DNA of 64,000 nucleotides from Cycloclasticus pugetii PS-1 (GTDB lineage Bacteria; Pseudomonadota; Gammaproteobacteria; Methylococcales; Cycloclasticaceae). A program made the position numbers and the translations under genes. Shown in pieces: positions 24,603 to 32,901 of this stretch. The stretch's first letter is position 1. Each line of letters starts with the position of its first letter. The DNA lies in contig NZ_ARVU01000001.1 in NCBI RefSeq assembly GCF_000384415.1, positions 558,001 to 622,000 of the forward strand, given 5' to 3'. A model generated the notes under the pieces. It was not told where the DNA came from, ran no database searches, and was given only the letters and a program-made list of their open reading frames with translations.

Positions 24603-25460
24603 ATGTCAAACGATAAAGGCATACTTTATATTGTAGCCACACCTATTGGGAATTTATCAGATATCAGTTTACGTGCTTTAGAAGTGCTTAAGGCGGTTGA
24701 TGTGATTGCCGCCGAGGACACGCGTAATAGCAAAGTCTTGTTGAATAACTACTCGATAAACACAGCGATGACGGCCTACCATGAGCATAACGAAAACAAT
24801 AAGCGTCAGTTTTTATTAGAAAAGTTGAGCGCTGGCGAATCAATCGCGTTGATATCGGATGCGGGCACACCACTTATTAATGACCCAGGTTACTCCTTAG
24901 TTGAAGGGGTCAAGCAGGCTGGTTTTGAGGTGGTGCCGGTTCCCGGTGCTTGTGCGTTAATTGCGGCGCTTAGCGCATCTGGATTAGCAACAGATAGGTT
25001 TAGTTTCGAAGGCTTCTTGCCGCGAACATCGGCAGCGCGAAAAGCAATTTTTGAGATATATAAGGGTCGTCAAGGTACGCTCGTATTTTATGAATCGAGC
25101 CATCGCATTATTAAATGCATGGACGATATATTCGCTACGTATGACCCAACGCATAAGATATCGATTGCCCGTGAATTGACTAAAACATATGAAACAATTG
25201 CAACAGGGTCGGTTGCAGATATTTATCAATTACTTCAAGCAGATAGTAATATGCAGCGTGGTGAGTTTGTCGTATTGATAGAAGGCGTCAACAAAAAGCA
25301 GCATAAAAAGGATGAGCTGTCCGATGAAGACGTTAAGACCCTAGAAACTTTATTGCTAGAGTGTTCACTAAAAACGGCTGTTAAATTGGCAGTTCAATTG
25401 ACCGGTCAGCCAAAGAAAGCGCTGTATAAAAGAGCACTTGAAATACAAGCTGATGATTAA
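24603..25460 (+). CDS. rsmI: 16S rRNA (cytidine1402-2'-O)-methyltransferase
   Basis: SAM-dependent tetrapyrrole-methylase-fold enzyme that 2'-O-methylates C1402 in the decoding centre. The 285 residues begin with LYIVATPIGNLSDISLRAL and contain AAEDTRNSKVLL, ISDAGTPLINDPGY (about 82-95) and PGACALIAALSASGL, all family signatures. It is divergent from lpoA and followed by rnpB, a common gammaproteobacterial order. Confidence 0.97.
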   Translation: MSNDKGILYIVATPIGNLSDISLRALEVLKAVDVIAAEDTRNSKVLLNNYSINTAMTAYHEHNENNKRQFLLEKLSAGESIALISDAGTPLINDPGYSLVEGVKQAGFEVVPVPGACALIAALSASGLATDRFSFEGFLPRTSAARKAIFEIYKGRQGTLVFYESSHRIIKCMDDIFATYDPTHKISIARELTKTYETIATGSVADIYQLLQADSNMQRGEFVVLIEGVNKKQHKKDELSDEDVKTLETLLLECSLKTAVKLAVQLTGQPKKALYKRALEIQADD

Positions 25461-25632
25461 AAAAAGGACAAAAACTAGGGTGAGTTTGGTCTGCTTTAAT
25501 CAGGCTTCAAAACTTAATTTGCGTTGTTGCTTTAACAGAATGTTTTTATAAGGTTGCCTGGAGGTAGTGTTGAGCTTGCATGAGTAGAATGCTTGCCGTG
25601 TTAAGTAAAACTGTGTCAGTTGCCTTTTTACA

Positions 25633-25662
25633 TTAACAATAGCAATTAATTTTTATTGTTAA
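25633..25662. repeat. Inverted repeat upstream of the rnpB promoter
   Basis: TTAACAATA (25633-25641) and its perfect complement TATTGTTAA (25654-25662) are separated by 12 bases and end 5 bases before the -35 box of rnpB. Arm centres are 21 bases apart, two helical turns. It could be an UP-element-like or operator site, or a weak terminator of rsmI (no T-run follows). Confidence 0.4.
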
Positions 25663-25667
25663 TAAAA

Positions 25668-25702
25668 TTGATCGAAGAGGTATTAGTTTGTACACTGCAC
25701 GC
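25668..25702 (+). promoter_or_regulatory. Promoter of rnpB
   Basis: TTGATC (25668-25673), a 17-base spacer, and TACACT (25691-25696). The first paired base of the RNA (25703) lies 7 bases after the -10, exactly where transcription should begin. The upstream DNA is very AT-rich. Confidence 0.8.
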
Positions 25703-26064
<362 letters not shown>

Positions 26065-26087
26065 ACTTTTATAACGATTCTAACGCC

Positions 26088-26136
26088 TAAAAACAGCTCG
26101 CTTAAGTGCTAAAGGCATTGTTTTTTCATTGTTTGG
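26088..26136 (+). terminator. Possible terminator after rnpB
   Basis: An imperfect stem (AACGCCT ... AGGCATT with an inner AGC/GCT pairing) is followed by TTTTTT at about 26131-26136. It lies at a reasonable distance after rnpB but has mismatches. Confidence 0.35.
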
Positions 26137-26142
26137 CCTATG

Positions 26143-26171
26143 TTGCGTCGCGGTATTTTATGTAGTAAAAT
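26143..26171 (+). promoter_or_regulatory. Promoter of the tetR-RND efflux operon
   Basis: TTGCGT (26143-26148), a 17-base spacer, TAAAAT (26166-26171). Transcription would begin near 26178, inside the palindrome at 26176-26191, which lies just before the tetR start (26206). Confidence 0.7.
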
Positions 26172-26175
26172 TCGC

Positions 26176-26191
26176 CTTAACGAACGTTAAG
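26176..26191. promoter_or_regulatory. Palindromic operator for the TetR-type regulator
   Basis: CTTAACGAACGTTAAG is two perfect 7-base half-sites around AA. It covers the predicted transcription start, 5 bases after the -10 box and 15 bases before the tetR ATG. This is the classic position for autorepression, so I infer that the adjacent TetR-family protein binds here. Confidence 0.7.
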
Positions 26192-26205
26192 TAACCAGTT
26201 GGTAG

Positions 26206-26838
26206 ATGAACGCACAAAGCAAAGAAATAAATACACGCATTAACATACTGGATAAGGCCACACCGTTATTTGCCGCTAAAGGCTATAACGGCGTTTCTAT
26301 GCGTGAATTATCTAAATTGGTTGGCTTGAGTACCGCCGCAATTTACCATCACTTTCCCGATAAACACGCGCTATATTTTGAAGTGCTGAAACACTCATTT
26401 GTTGATAAGGCGACTGCCATAGCAGGCTCTGTTTCAAACACAGGGGCACCGCTAGAGCGACTTGAAAGTTTTATCGAGCGCTTTGCCTTGATGGTTAATG
26501 ACGATCAAAACGTTAGGGCGTTAGTCATGTGGGAGTTGCTGGATGGGGATGAGGCGAGGTTGAAGTTAGTGGCTGAAGAAGTGCTATTAGAGCCCTTTAA
26601 AATGGTTCTAGCCTTGGTTCAGGATATTGCCCCTGAGGCTGACCATTACATGTTAACCGTCTCCAGTATTTGGTTGGTGCTATCGCACTCAGCTACCAGA
26701 CCTATGTGTCAATACTTACCGGGATGGAAGACATCTTATAGTGACCCAAGTGTTATTTCGTCACACGTTATACAACTATTGAAAAACAATATTAATACCA
26801 TCAATACAGTGGCCGATGAGAGGGGCCCTAATACATGA
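26206..26838 (+). CDS. TetR/AcrR-family transcriptional regulator
   Basis: Probable local repressor of the efflux operon. Its 210 residues have an N-terminal helix-turn-helix (about residues 14-60; SMRELSKLVGLSTAAIYHHFPDKHALYFEVL is the classic TetR signature). The C-terminal ligand-binding part is divergent. Its stop overlaps the adaptor start (ATGA), so regulator and pump are one transcript. A perfect palindrome sits over the promoter, implying negative autoregulation relieved by a pump substrate. The ligand is unknown. Confidence 0.9.
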   Translation: MNAQSKEINTRINILDKATPLFAAKGYNGVSMRELSKLVGLSTAAIYHHFPDKHALYFEVLKHSFVDKATAIAGSVSNTGAPLERLESFIERFALMVNDDQNVRALVMWELLDGDEARLKLVAEEVLLEPFKMVLALVQDIAPEADHYMLTVSSIWLVLSHSATRPMCQYLPGWKTSYSDPSVISSHVIQLLKNNINTINTVADERGPNT

Positions 26839-27923
26839 GTTTTTTGAAAAAACAATTAACACTTATGCTGTCAATAGGTTTGCTGGTTAACCTATTAGGG
26901 TGTTCTGAGCAGCCTAAGGCTGAAAAAGCAGTGAAAGAACCTTGGGCACTGCAAACAGCACAGGTGCAAGTTGAGAGTCTACCAATAGTTTATCGAACAA
27001 CAGGCTCTATTGTTTCAGATCATCGTGTTGATGTTGCCTCTAGAAGCACGGGCTATATTAAGAAAATCTTGGTGCGTGAAGGTGATTCGGTGACGACCGG
27101 ACAAACATTAGTGGTATTGGATGGTGCGGATGTTGAAGGTGCTATTCGGCAAGTCACCGCGTCGGTGGATAAAGCAAAATCGGCATTAAAAGATGCGCAA
27201 ACCGATCTGGAAAGCTTCCAAGCATTATTTGAGCGTGGCAGCGTGTCTGAAAACAAACTCAGAAAAGTACGGTTGCAGCGGGATATCGCGCAAGACACAT
27301 TACGCGAAGCTAAAGCAGCGCTACAAACAACTCAGGCGCAGCGTCAATATACTCAAATTACAAGCCCAGTTAGTGGTGTGGTAGTGGGGCGGCATAAACG
27401 TGAAGGAGATTTGGCAGCACCTGCTATACCTTTACTAACAGTTGAGTCAGCTGACGGTTTGTTATTTGAAACGTATATTGGCGAGGGACAGTTAAAAAAT
27501 ATCAGTCGAGGAGAAACTGTTGAGCTGGTTATTGATGCGCTTGATGAATCGCTTCATGGCGTTATTGCTCGAGTTGTTCCATCGGCTGATCCGTTAACGC
27601 GTAAATCACAAGTAAAAGTCTCGTTACCGGATAACAGTAAGCTACGGCCAGGGATGTTTGGGCGAGCTCATTTTAAAGTAGGCGTTAAATCCTCGCCGGT
27701 TATTCGTGTTGAGTCCTTGATAAGCAGGGCGGGCTTAACCGGGGTATATATAGTTGACGAACAACAGCGCATTCATTTTCGCTGGCTACGCTTAGGGAAA
27801 ACAACCCGCGGAAAAATTGAAGTATTAGTCGGTTTAACGGGTGGCGAGCAAATTGTATCAGCCCCTACTGAGCGGTTGCGAGAGGGTGACTCTATTCAAG
27901 CAAGGGATGTAGTGGGTGGATAA
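26835..27923 (+). CDS. RND efflux periplasmic adaptor lipoprotein (membrane fusion protein)
   Basis: HlyD/AcrA-type adaptor linking the RND pump to the outer-membrane channel. The 362-residue protein has a lipoprotein signal with lipobox LLGC (Cys23). It then shows the half-lipoyl segment VREGDSVTTGQTLVVLDGADV, a coiled-coil hairpin (about 95-155), the second lipoyl half TSPVSGVVVGRHKREGDLA, and a beta-barrel region ending near residue 350. It overlaps tetR by 4 bases and the pump gene by 8. Confidence 0.93.
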   Translation: MSFLKKQLTLMLSIGLLVNLLGCSEQPKAEKAVKEPWALQTAQVQVESLPIVYRTTGSIVSDHRVDVASRSTGYIKKILVREGDSVTTGQTLVVLDGADVEGAIRQVTASVDKAKSALKDAQTDLESFQALFERGSVSENKLRKVRLQRDIAQDTLREAKAALQTTQAQRQYTQITSPVSGVVVGRHKREGDLAAPAIPLLTVESADGLLFETYIGEGQLKNISRGETVELVIDALDESLHGVIARVVPSADPLTRKSQVKVSLPDNSKLRPGMFGRAHFKVGVKSSPVIRVESLISRAGLTGVYIVDEQQRIHFRWLRLGKTTRGKIEVLVGLTGGEQIVSAPTERLREGDSIQARDVVGG

Positions 27924-30900
27924 TAAGCGATTAAATCCGGCGGGATGGGTTGCGCATGCTTTCGTTACCTCCAAGTTAACCGTGTTATTTATGCTCAGCT
28001 GTGTATTGCTGGGTATTATCGCTATTTTGTTAACGCCTCGTGAGGAAAACCCGCAAATTGTGGTGCCGGGCGCCGAAATTTTTGTCAGCATGCCGGGTGC
28101 AACACCAAGCGAAATAGAAGAACTGGTGATCAATCCATTAGAAGGCATTATTCGAGAAATACCTGGTGTTGATCATACCTATGCAACCGCACTGAACTCT
28201 ATGGGTGTGGTGAGTGTTCAGTTTAAAGTAGGGCTTGATAAGGAAGAATCGCTCGTGAAGCTTTACGACCGAGTTCTAGGAAAACAAGACCAATTACCTG
28301 CTGATGCTTCAGTTCCTTTAATTAGAAGTGTTGATGTTGATGATGTGCCAATTCTAACGGTTACCCTAGCCTCAGAAAAATATGATGATTACGCTTTAAA
28401 ACGCCTAGCAGACCATATGGTAGACCGTTTACGTAGTTTGAATGAAGTGTCGGTTGCCTACGTTAAAGGAGGGCGAGACAGAGAGGTTCGGGTCGAACTT
28501 GATCCTGAAAGGTTGTTGGGTTTTGGTATTACGCTAGACCAAATGCAGGCAGCATTGCAAGCTGGTAATGTATCGGCCCCGGTTGGCACACAAGCAATTC
28601 AAGGAAAGGTTAGTAACCTCTACTTAGATGGGTTTTTAACGTCTGCTGAACAAGTCAAAAAACTAATAATAGGTAGCTTTAATCAACAAGCTATTTACAT
28701 GGAAGATGTTGCAGACATCATTGATGGTCCTCGAGAAGAACGAGACAAACTTTCACGATTTGCTTATGGCCCAGCAGACCCAAGATTTGGTTCCACCGCT
28801 ACGGTAGAAATCCCCGCGGTTTCTATTGCCGTTGCAAAAAAAACCGGGACCAATGCGGTCTTCGTAGCGGATGATGTGCTAGATAGAATTGAGCGGATGA
28901 AAAACAGTTTTATTCCCGCCGGAGTAGAGGTCATTATTACGCGTAATGATGGCAAAAAGGCTGATGATGCGGTTAATAATTTGATTGAGCATCTGGGTAT
29001 CGCTATCATTTCTGTTTTTGTTGTTATTGTGCTTTTTCTTGGGTTTAAAGAAGCGCTCATCGTTGGGATTAGTGTGCCTTTTATTTTGGCTTTAACACTG
29101 GGTTCTGACTATATATTTGGAATCACCATCAATAGAGTCACTTTGTTCGGTTTAATTCTCTCTTTAGGGTTATTAGTGGATTCTTCAATTGTGGTGATTG
29201 AGAATATTCATAGGCATTATAAAAGCTTATGGTTAAAGGATAAGGTGGATGTCACCGTTGAGGCCACTAACGAAATTGGGAACCCAACCAATTTAGCGAC
29301 GTTTGCCGTTATGTTGGTGTTTGGTTCGTTGGTGGTGGTGACAGACATGGCAGGGCAATATTTTTTCCCCATCGCATTTAATGTGCCAATGGCCATGTTT
29401 GCGTCATTATTAGTGGCTTATATTGTTACACCTTGGGCTGCTAACCGTTGGCTCAAACCGGGTGAAGGGGAAGATTTAGAAACGCCCCATGACAATGATA
29501 AATTACATCAGTTTTACTACAACATTATTACGCCCTTATTAGCTCGTCGGCGTTATCGCTACATTACAATAGGCGTTATTGTCTTAGCTATTGTGTTATC
29601 CATGTTGCAACCAGCTTGGCAATTTATTCGCCCTGCGGGTGTGGGTGGCCCAGTGTCAGCGGGCGGTATTCCTTTAGTCTTTTTGCCGAAGGATAATAAA
29701 AACACCTTTAACATTACGATCGACATGCCTGAATTCACGCCGATAGAAGTGACCGATCAGATCACTCGCGAAGTGGGTGCTCTATTGCGTGAGCGTGATA
29801 ACGTGCTTAATTATCAAAGTTGGGTTGGGCAAACGGGCGTTATTGATTTTAATGGCTTGTTAAAGGGAGCGGGTAATAAAAAAGGTTCATTTGTTGCTGA
29901 AGTGAGAGTGAATTTAACGGATAAAAAAACGCGAGATATGAGTTCTATTGATTTAGTTGCTCAGCTGCGTCCTGCAATGGAAAAAATTCAGCAACGTTAC
30001 CCTGGCAGTGTTATTCAATTAGCAGAAGACTTACCCGGCCCGCCTTTACGGGCGACGGTTTTAGCTGAAATTTATGGTAAAGATCCGGAAAAGCTTCGTG
30101 AAATATCAGCCAAGGTGAGCAAGGTGTTTAAAGAGACTTACGGCGTTGTTGAGGTGCATGACTCTGAAGTGGCTGATGTGCCACAGTTTAGAGTGATTGT
30201 AGATAAAGAAAAAGCCGCTTTATCGGGTGTTTCAGTAGCGCAGGTTGTACAAGCATTGAGGCAAATGGTCAGTGGGACTGAGATGGGCCGTTTACATATT
30301 GCGTCAGAAAAAAAGATTGTGCCAATACGCTTACATATTCCTTATCAATACCAGATAGACCCAACGCTTTTATCGAGTATTTATTTAACGAACAGACAAG
30401 GGCAAAGAATACCGCTATCTGAATTGACTCGAGTGGTTAACGATATTCAAGACCGGCCAATTTTGCATAAGGATTATGAGCGCGTGACATTTGTAGGTGC
30501 AGAACTGAGCGATACCACACCGGTGTATGCAGTGATGGATATAGATCAACGATTAGACAATCTGTCATTGGGTGAAGGAGAGGTGTTAACAACGGGTAAT
30601 TTACAATTACAATCGGTTACCCCTGACACGATTGATGGATACCAATTGCTATGGGATGGCGAGATTCGTTTAACCTTAGATGTTTTTCGCGACATGTTAG
30701 GTGCGCTTGGTATTGCATTGGTTTTTATCTATCTATTATTGGTCGGTTATTATGCCTCGTTTAAAATACCACTGATAGCCATGTCGGCTATTCCACTTGG
30801 GCTGATTGGTGTGTTTCCTGGGCACTGGATAGTTGGTGAACCTTTCACCTCAACGTCGATGATTGGAGTAATAGCATTAGCGGGTGTGGTGGTTCGTAAC

Positions 30901-31191
30901 TCATTGTTAATTATTGATTTTGTAGTGGACTATATGAAAAAAGGTATGTCTGCACATGAAGCGGTTAGAGAGGCAGGGGCTGTTCGGTTACGGCCAATTT
31001 TATTGACAGCATTGGCGATTGTTTTGGGCTCTGCGGTGATGTTATCTGACCCTGTTTTTGGTGGGCTGGCGATCTCATTAATCTTCGGTACGATTGTGTC
31101 AACGGCGTTGACACTGGTTGTGGTACCGATGTTGCTGTATTCAATGTTAACACGTCAGTCGCTTCATACTGGTTCAACAGGAGAAGACTAA
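27916..31191 (+). CDS. RND-family efflux pump, inner-membrane subunit
   Basis: Proton-driven inner-membrane exporter of the AcrB/HAE1-like group, 1091 residues from a GTG start that overlaps the adaptor. It has the usual twofold plan: TM1 near 20-38, porter domain, TM2-6 (about 350-510), TM7 near 560, second porter domain, TM8-12 (about 925-1075). In TM4 the paired aspartates of AcrB (Asp407-Asp408) are Asp422-Ser423 (GLLVDSSIVVIEN). In TM10 the AcrB Lys940 position appears to be Arg (VVVRNSLLIIDF). Substrate cannot be assigned; hydrophobic toxicants are plausible. Confidence 0.93.
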   Translation: MDNKRLNPAGWVAHAFVTSKLTVLFMLSCVLLGIIAILLTPREENPQIVVPGAEIFVSMPGATPSEIEELVINPLEGIIREIPGVDHTYATALNSMGVVSVQFKVGLDKEESLVKLYDRVLGKQDQLPADASVPLIRSVDVDDVPILTVTLASEKYDDYALKRLADHMVDRLRSLNEVSVAYVKGGRDREVRVELDPERLLGFGITLDQMQAALQAGNVSAPVGTQAIQGKVSNLYLDGFLTSAEQVKKLIIGSFNQQAIYMEDVADIIDGPREERDKLSRFAYGPADPRFGSTATVEIPAVSIAVAKKTGTNAVFVADDVLDRIERMKNSFIPAGVEVIITRNDGKKADDAVNNLIEHLGIAIISVFVVIVLFLGFKEALIVGISVPFILALTLGSDYIFGITINRVTLFGLILSLGLLVDSSIVVIENIHRHYKSLWLKDKVDVTVEATNEIGNPTNLATFAVMLVFGSLVVVTDMAGQYFFPIAFNVPMAMFASLLVAYIVTPWAANRWLKPGEGEDLETPHDNDKLHQFYYNIITPLLARRRYRYITIGVIVLAIVLSMLQPAWQFIRPAGVGGPVSAGGIPLVFLPKDNKNTFNITIDMPEFTPIEVTDQITREVGALLRERDNVLNYQSWVGQTGVIDFNGLLKGAGNKKGSFVAEVRVNLTDKKTRDMSSIDLVAQLRPAMEKIQQRYPGSVIQLAEDLPGPPLRATVLAEIYGKDPEKLREISAKVSKVFKETYGVVEVHDSEVADVPQFRVIVDKEKAALSGVSVAQVVQALRQMVSGTEMGRLHIASEKKIVPIRLHIPYQYQIDPTLLSSIYLTNRQGQRIPLSELTRVVNDIQDRPILHKDYERVTFVGAELSDTTPVYAVMDIDQRLDNLSLGEGEVLTTGNLQLQSVTPDTIDGYQLLWDGEIRLTLDVFRDMLGALGIALVFIYLLLVGYYASFKIPLIAMSAIPLGLIGVFPGHWIVGEPFTSTSMIGVIALAGVVVRNSLLIIDFVVDYMKKGMSAHEAVREAGAVRLRPILLTALAIVLGSAVMLSDPVFGGLAISLIFGTIVSTALTLVVVPMLLYSMLTRQSLHTGSTGED

Positions 31192-32480
31192 TGTTGTTTA
31201 AAAAGAACCAACTTTTTGCTCTTGTACTTTTGTTTGGCTGCGTGCTTCCCATGGCTTTAGAAGCAGAAACACTCGAGCAGGCATGGGATATTGCCATCAA
31301 GTATGACCATAGTCTTCAAGCGGTGCGTGAAAATACACAAGCTAGTCAATACCAGCTAGAGGCAGCAAAGGCAGCCCGTTTGCCTAATGTCACTGTTGGG
31401 GCAGGGTATAGCATGATGGAGAATGACCCAGAAGCAAAAGTAGATTTTGCGGGTGTATCAACACAATTCCCATTGGCTGAACGAGAAAGTTATTCGTACA
31501 AAGCGATGACGGTATTACCTATTTACACCGGTGGAAAAATTAGTCGTGGTATCGATGCGGCAACCTCTTCGTTAGAAGCTTCAAAAAAGTTTGAGGCGGG
31601 TAAAGTGCTAGACTTGAAGCTGAAAGTGGCTGAAGCCTACATCGCGGTGTTGCGATTAAGTAAAGCACTTGAGGTGGCAAATAGTCATGTGGTCAGCCTA
31701 TCCTCGCATAAGGCAGATGTTGAAAACCTATATCAGCAGGGGATGGTATCAAGAAATGATTTATTAGCCGCGAAAGTTGCTTTGGCCGATGCAGTGCAGT
31801 CATCTATGCAGGTTGAAAATAGGCTTGATATTAGTCAATCTGCCTATAATCGTTTACTGGGGCGAGATTTTCAAACAGCGGTCTTATTGAAAGAATTAGA
31901 GCCGCAAAGAGTAGACCTTTCGTTGGATATGTTATTGGCTCAAGCGATTAAGCAACGTTACGAATTGCGTGTTTTAAAAGAACAAGCCGACGCACTTAAA
32001 TCCAAAGCAAAGGCTGTTCGAGCAGGTAATGCGCCACAAGTTGCTTTAACGGGCGGTTATGATTTTCAAGAAAACGAGTATCAGGCACATGAGGGTCAAT
32101 GGTTAGTAGGTGTCGGTGTGAAATGGACGTTGTTCGATGCAGGCCTAATTCGTCATCAATCGTCAGCAATGGCTCGTCAAGCGCGTTCACTTGAAAAACA
32201 ATATGATGAAGTATTAAGCCTTGTTAAACTGCAAGTAAGGCAATATTGGCTAGACGTACAAGAAACACGTAAACGTCTTGGCGTAACCGAGCAATCTATT
32301 GATCAGGCAGAAGAAAACCTAAAGGTTAATCGTGATCGGTATGAGCATGGCTTATCAACCAATACCGATGTGCTTAGTGCCGAAGCACTACGGAAAAACA
32401 GCCAGAATAACCATGCAAATGCTGTTTATGATGCGGTCTTAGCAAGCATTAGGTTAAAAAGGGCTATCAGTGATTTATAA
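31191..32480 (+). CDS. TolC-family outer-membrane efflux protein
   Basis: Outer-membrane channel completing the tripartite pump. The 429-residue precursor has a Sec signal peptide (about residues 1-25, ending ALEAE). Two repeated OEP domains of long helices follow, e.g. QAVRENTQASQYQLEAAKAARLPNVTVGAGYS and the second copy ALKSKAKAVRAGNAPQVALTGGY. Its ATG shares one base with the pump stop (TAATG). It completes a tetR-adaptor-pump-channel operon with all junctions overlapping. Confidence 0.93.
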   Translation: MLFKKNQLFALVLLFGCVLPMALEAETLEQAWDIAIKYDHSLQAVRENTQASQYQLEAAKAARLPNVTVGAGYSMMENDPEAKVDFAGVSTQFPLAERESYSYKAMTVLPIYTGGKISRGIDAATSSLEASKKFEAGKVLDLKLKVAEAYIAVLRLSKALEVANSHVVSLSSHKADVENLYQQGMVSRNDLLAAKVALADAVQSSMQVENRLDISQSAYNRLLGRDFQTAVLLKELEPQRVDLSLDMLLAQAIKQRYELRVLKEQADALKSKAKAVRAGNAPQVALTGGYDFQENEYQAHEGQWLVGVGVKWTLFDAGLIRHQSSAMARQARSLEKQYDEVLSLVKLQVRQYWLDVQETRKRLGVTEQSIDQAEENLKVNRDRYEHGLSTNTDVLSAEALRKNSQNNHANAVYDAVLASIRLKRAISDL

Positions 32481-32517: not shown

Positions 32518-32901
32518 ATGGAACTATCGACCCCCGCCTTATTATTTCCCGCTATTTCATTGTTACTACTTGCCTATACGAATCGCTTTTTGGGCTTGGC
32601 AAACGTTATCCGCGGTTTACATCAGCAAATTAATGAGACGAATAAGCAGCTTATTGCACGTCAGATTATCAGTTTGCAGTTGCGTATAAAGTTAATCATC
32701 TGGATGCAAATTTTGGGGGTACTAAGCATTAGTTTTTGCGTAGCTGCGATGTTCCTATTATTTTTAGCGGCTGGTGATTTCGGTCAATGGGCTTTTACTA
32801 TCAGTTTAGTACTCATGATGCTGTCGCTGGTTGTTTCACTATACGAGCTGATTATTTCAGGCCATGCACTTAATATAGAACTTGAAGATATCGATTGTTA
32901 G
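32518..32901 (+). CDS. DUF2721 family membrane protein
   Basis: Small inner-membrane protein of 127 residues with three hydrophobic segments (about residues 5-22, 58-83 and 88-112). I recognise the LLLLAYTNRFLGLANVIRGLH start and the RQIISLQLRIKLI segment of DUF2721. No function is known to me. It starts 37 bases after the TolC gene on the same strand, so it could be transcribed with the efflux operon, but the family is not normally linked to RND pumps. Confidence 0.75.
   Translation: MELSTPALLFPAISLLLLAYTNRFLGLANVIRGLHQQINETNKQLIARQIISLQLRIKLIIWMQILGVLSISFCVAAMFLLFLAAGDFGQWAFTISLVLMMLSLVVSLYELIISGHALNIELEDIDC

Follow-up and report, generated by a model that had tools for sequence, protein, structure and literature searches.

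The DNA in front of a tetR gene of Cycloclasticus pugetii PS-1 raises the question whether a short inverted repeat, which overlaps the predicted tetR promoter, is the operator through which the TetR-family protein controls its own gene and the RND efflux pump encoded behind it. A first-pass annotation of the window (the whole stretch of 64,000 nucleotides analysed here) had read the repeat as an autorepressor operator. From the sequence comparisons described below we consider it highly probable that the TetR-family repressor encoded next to the site uses it as its operator and thereby controls both tetR itself and the pump. The features of the locus are as follows.

25703 to 26064, plus strand: RNase P RNA gene (rnpB; Rfam RF00010, 329.6 bits), context outside the switch
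26143 to 26148, plus strand: -35-like hexamer TTGCGT; TTG with a 17-bp spacer occurs in 5/5 Cycloclasticus copies examined
26166 to 26171, plus strand: -10-like hexamer TAAAAT, ending 4 bp before the putative operator
26176 to 26191, no strand assigned: 7-AA-7 interrupted palindrome of the first-pass annotation
26176 to 26195, no strand assigned: putative operator, a conserved element of about 20 bp (consensus CYTAACRAACGTTMRGTARG; window copy CTTAACGAACGTTAAGTAAC; footprint over 44 and 46 sites)
26206 to 26838, plus strand: tetR, TetR-family repressor of 210 aa (Pfam PF00440, E 1.3e-14, 54.1 bits against a cut-off of 24)
26835 to 27923, plus strand: MFP, periplasmic adaptor of 362 aa (PF16576; RND_mfp TIGR01730, 199 bits against a cut-off of 94.9), overlapping tetR by 4 bases
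27916 to 31191, plus strand: RND permease (ACR_tran, PF00873) of 1091 aa with a GTG start, overlapping the MFP gene by 8 bases
31191 to 32480, plus strand: OMF, outer-membrane efflux protein (OEP/TolC-like, PF02321) of 429 aa, overlapping the RND gene by 1 base
32518 to 32901, plus strand: DUF2721 gene, separated from the OMF gene by 37 bases

As the coordinates confirm, the four genes tetR, MFP, RND and OMF are all joined by overlaps, and from these overlaps we infer that one site would control all four. The DUF2721 gene is a possible fifth cistron of the operon; a homologue (88-92% identity) lies at the corresponding place in three relatives (L040, L041 and L163). The adaptor is encoded together with an AcrB-type permease and a TolC-type channel, the combination that makes up an RND tripartite pump. 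The permease could not be assigned to a named multidrug RND subfamily, as RND_permease_2 gave 419.5 bits against a cut-off of 1250 and the other 12 listed models also stayed below their cut-offs. Likewise, none of the 18 listed NCBIfam models for named TetR subfamilies (AcrR, MtrR, RutR, BetI and others) reached its cut-off (best 50.8 against 150 bits). An AlphaFold2 model of the TetR protein (pLDDT 89.9) showed ten helical elements in an all-helical TetR fold, in which the HTH helices are predicted to span residues 32-39 and 43-49; its best listed structural matches were TetR-family regulators. The nearest solved fold was PhlH (7e1n; TM-score 0.75), with RutR, Rv0078 and FadR also near; at 14-22% sequence identity among the 50 matches listed, their ligand specificity is not transferable.

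AcrR, MtrR, MexL and NalC are repressors of RND pumps, and the window's TetR resembles them as a TetR-fold protein tied to such a pump. MexL and NalC structures appeared among its structural matches, and the AcrR and MtrR models among the NCBIfam models listed for it. It differs in that it scores far below the cut-off of every listed NCBIfam regulator model. Moreover, acrR and mtrR are transcribed divergently from the respective pump genes, while the window's tetR is the first cistron of its operon.

The inverted repeat itself, CTTAACGAACGTTAAG, is the 16-mer at 26176-26191 of the window. It had been described as a perfect palindrome with 7-base half-sites. The arms CTTAACG and CGTTAAG are indeed exact inverse complements, but the AA between them is not palindromic, so that the site is a 7-2-7 interrupted palindrome. 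When the genome of 2,383,924 bases (2.38 Mb) was searched for the same 16-mer, one copy was found, the one before tetR. The symmetry alone proves little, because 7-2-7 repeats are expected by chance: the 64-kb window contains six of them, and 68 when spacers of 0-8 are allowed. We therefore rejected symmetry as evidence and took conservation as the evidence instead.

The exact 16-mer was found in 6 of the 311 genomes of the order, once in each and always directly 5′ of a tetR orthologue. In a set of 61 genomes (the own genome and its relatives) it was present in the same six, which are those with the closest tetR (52-100% identity). All six sites have the same orientation relative to tetR and are followed by TAA. 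The DNA further upstream varies: the window and genome G017 have rnpB there, G008 and G004 have another RND permease gene, and G003 and G029 have other sequence.

More distant copies were collected in a protein-based scan, in which the best 80 of 299 loci were taken. Of these, 46 (L040-L085, 33-78% identity) were taken as the same TetR group and the 34 others (L086-L119) as comparison TetRs; together with the window and G008, the 46 loci give 48 tetR copies. The window's own 19-mer was present with at most 4 mismatches within 260 bp upstream of 36/48 copies from these best 80 loci, compared to 0/2638 background segments and 2/34 comparison TetRs. With the consensus and at most 3 mismatches the numbers were 44/48 copies (again from the best 80 of 299), 0/898 background segments and 3/55 comparison TetRs, a partly circular test since the consensus was derived from the sites themselves. 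The 55 comparison TetRs are the 34 and 21 further ones; L022, with too little upstream DNA, was left out. The copy counts are not independent, as many sites come from related Methylococcaceae and 32/46 lie in one orientation.

Within 400 bp upstream, a related site (at most 3 mismatches to the consensus) preceded 46 of the 48 tetR copies drawn from the best 80 of 299 loci; none was seen before L083, nor before L068, where 187 bp of upstream DNA were covered. According to the first-pass annotation, an autorepressor operator would be refuted if orthologous tetR genes lacked the palindrome in their upstream DNA; the site proved to be kept there, in exact form in the 6/311 genomes and in related form in these 46/48 copies. 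A search of 369 genomes of the class with an 18-base consensus, blind to tetR, returned two matches, the window and G649, and both lie before tetR orthologues; the reversed-pattern control returned none. In G649, the site closely precedes a tetR that shares 45% identity with that of the window, and an MFP-like gene comes next. The frequency of such repeats in the window would fit an inverted repeat that arose by chance and has no function, but conservation far above background and co-occurrence with tetR have already refuted this explanation, to which we give practically no credence.

The conservation covers positions 1-20 of the element and thus extends 4 bases past the palindrome of the first-pass annotation. 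Over 46 sites, it was most symmetric about an AAC/GTT axis (r 0.91, compared to 0.60 about the axis annotated earlier, 0.83 at 7.0 and 0.81 at 11.0). Across ten base pairs, 68% paired about the AAC/GTT axis and 61% about the 7-AA-7 axis, whereas in the window's own copy 6/10 pairs match about the former and 7/8 about the latter. The dyad axis is therefore likely to lie between 26185 and 26186, 2 bp to the right of the 7-AA-7 axis; the data favour this position but are not decisive. Thus, the location given earlier was right, while the element measures about 20 bp instead of 16 and its centre probably lies 2 bp further right. The 46 sites occur in both orientations (14 plus, 32 minus), as expected of a dimer site.

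The promoter hexamers TTGCGT and TAAAAT, their 17-bp spacer and the palindrome behind them were found as annotated. Judged from the -10 hexamer, transcription would start at about 26177-26179, and the site would lie across this presumed start point. The window's -35 hexamer matches TTGACA at 3/6 bases and its promoter scores 8 of 12; no promoter was called within 25450-26900 by a standard scan. The distance from the end of the best -10-like hexamer to the site is 0-5 bp in 38/46 copies, and a best promoter score of at least 9 of 12 was reached by 48% of the 46 copies compared to 9% of shuffles. This pattern across the copies supports the window's predicted promoter despite its weak -35. No intrinsic terminator was found in 25450-26900, including the gap between rnpB and the tetR promoter (26064-26143), and the predicted fold of the 76 nt after rnpB did not surpass those of shuffled sequences. 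Transcription may read through from rnpB into the pump operon.

An inverted repeat that lies at the presumed start of a transcript, or close to it, could also act as RNA, as a hairpin in the 5′ leader. We rejected this explanation and consider it extremely improbable. The loop would have 2 bases, and the fold predicted for 26170-26215 is not that of the palindrome and does not outperform shuffled sequences (z -0.02). Furthermore, the element occurs in both orientations and has conserved letters outside the palindrome.

Two loci separate the site from the pump. Genome G009 has the orthologous pump (L162, G009:C4, 3492-9134) with 59%, 75% and 59% identity to the window's MFP, RND and OMF, respectively. 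In the 11 kb around it there is no tetR match and no site better than 4 mismatches; the pump has lost tetR and operator here, or never had them. Conversely, L044 (in G029) has tetR and the full 19-mer, and no pump gene was found within 10.7 kb. Its downstream neighbours encode a patatin, a DUF6781 protein and an ABC1 protein, its upstream neighbours an alpha/beta hydrolase, an SDR, an AmoC-like protein and a MoaF-like protein. Pump without tetR and site in one case, and tetR and site without pump in the other, point to tetR as the partner of the site. L044 is the single clean case of its kind. L046 and L052 have no RND pump downstream of tetR, but were rejected as pump-less cases, as RND-like fragments lie near the L046 tetR and a divergent HlyD-ABC pair lies in L052. 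The AmoC-like protein (ammonia/methane monooxygenase subunit C family) is encoded at 1839-2417 of L044, upstream of the pump-less tetR.

The genes downstream of the 46 loci (from the best 80 of 299) varied. A pump like the window's was found in 9 and an OMF-MFP-RND set as in Methylovulum in 22; the remainder had an MMPL protein (4 loci, in 3 of them with a LolA-like protein), another RND pump (3) or no such pump found downstream (8, of which L070 and L085 cover less than 1 kb). Hence, one regulator-operator pair precedes different transporters. In L052 (1-2470), tetR and operator face the divergent HlyD-ABC transporter pair, and the same operator may control this exporter.

Another regulator might bind the site in place of the adjacent TetR, since the own genome lists 4 TetR-like matches, and a related site lies close to oxygenase genes, where the neighbours that were scanned included no TetR. 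We regard this as very unlikely, because the presence of the site tracks this tetR across genomes and the conserved recognition helix SxAAxYHHF accompanies it. S42, A44, A45, Y47, H48, H49 and F50, in or beside this helix, are invariant in the 27 aligned copies of 48, an invariance that is partly by construction, as the peptide patterns that found the loci select a conserved helix.

The adjacent TetR protein as autorepressor would work as follows. In the absence of ligand, a TetR dimer would bind the element of about 20 bp at 26176-26195 and bar RNA polymerase from the tetR-MFP-RND-OMF promoter; it would act as a repressor rather than as an activator. Repression would cover both tetR and the pump, and a ligand, probably a pump substrate, would release TetR. 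Such an autorepressor operator is an ordinary kind of switch and is well supported here.

The eefR gene of E. coli belongs with the eefABC RND pump. EefR is a TetR regulator reported to control its own gene; gel shifts demonstrated its 18-bp palindrome, located upstream of eefR (PMC12482432). The authors report that their scan of upstream regions gave no similar repeat elsewhere (PMC12482432). The window has the same kind of arrangement, a palindrome upstream of the TetR regulator's own gene. However, the operators are unrelated (TGAGAACGATCATTCTCA versus TTAACGAACGTTAAGTAA), binding is a prediction in our case, and a possible second target exists for the window's TetR. The operator sequence was not found in print when six operator-like strings were searched in open-licence papers. 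With it, an unnamed TetR clade, whose operator occurs in Gammaproteobacteria and Desulfobulbaceae-type MAGs, would gain a defined operator sequence, which allows prediction of its regulon in any genome, and one regulator-operator pair appears coupled to several transporter sets.

The possible second target is a weaker copy, TCTAACGAACGTTAATTAG, at 2299606-2299624 of the genome, with 2 mismatches. It lies between divergent genes, with a ring-hydroxylating oxygenase on one side and, on the other, a quinone reductase (Flavodoxin_2) that has an SDR gene behind it. Among the 18 genomes of the genus that were searched, a version of this site was found in 5/5 that hold the oxygenase (E ≤ 1e-60), while the intergenic DNA around it is otherwise largely diverged. 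The five copies each differ from the consensus at two or three positions. With a score of 20.6, the copy in the own genome falls within the range of true sites (19.9-30.8), and 0.125 such matches are expected per genome-sized random sequence. The copies of G017 and G008 are degraded and were located by position, as their score of about 15 is reached about ten times by chance. Nearby are further genes of aromatic-metabolism type (LigB, SDRs, GST and a second oxygenase). Of the 21 ORFs listed there, 10 neighbours were scanned, and none of these encodes a TetR.

It is thus a tentative possibility that the repressor also acts in trans on this aromatic-degradation locus; another protein may bind the site there. 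Cycloclasticus is a genus known for degrading aromatic hydrocarbons at sea. If the repressor does act on both loci, efflux and aromatic-compound oxidation would share one sensor, and the site points to a testable link between the two in this genus. G001, which has the oxygenase site and no tetR, was considered as a counter-example and rejected, since the contig that carries its pump breaks off where the RND gene starts, and its tetR would therefore fall outside the assembled contig. A further 2-mismatch site at genome position 759170 was also rejected, as it runs across the end of a coding frame and proved not to be conserved in 7 aligned relatives, out of 16 other genomes in which there was a match. 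We dismissed a wider regulon within the genome as well, with 9 matches of at most 3 mismatches compared to 12 in the reversed-pattern control.

Related sites were also seen outside the Gammaproteobacteria. In L048-L051, which belong to MAGs of Desulfobulbaceae and Desulfuromonadaceae, the same tetR (40-42% identity) occurs with the operator, located 157-382 bp upstream of the match start and away from the start codon. A pump resembling that of the window (RND 53-63%) is present in three of the four; L049 has a weak MFP fragment. This suggests horizontal transfer. In MAGs of Acidobacteria and Actinobacteria, the more distant TetRs L087, L088 and L094 are preceded by a site of similar form (that of L088 is CCTACCAACCGTTCGGTAA), which differs from the consensus at 2-3 positions.
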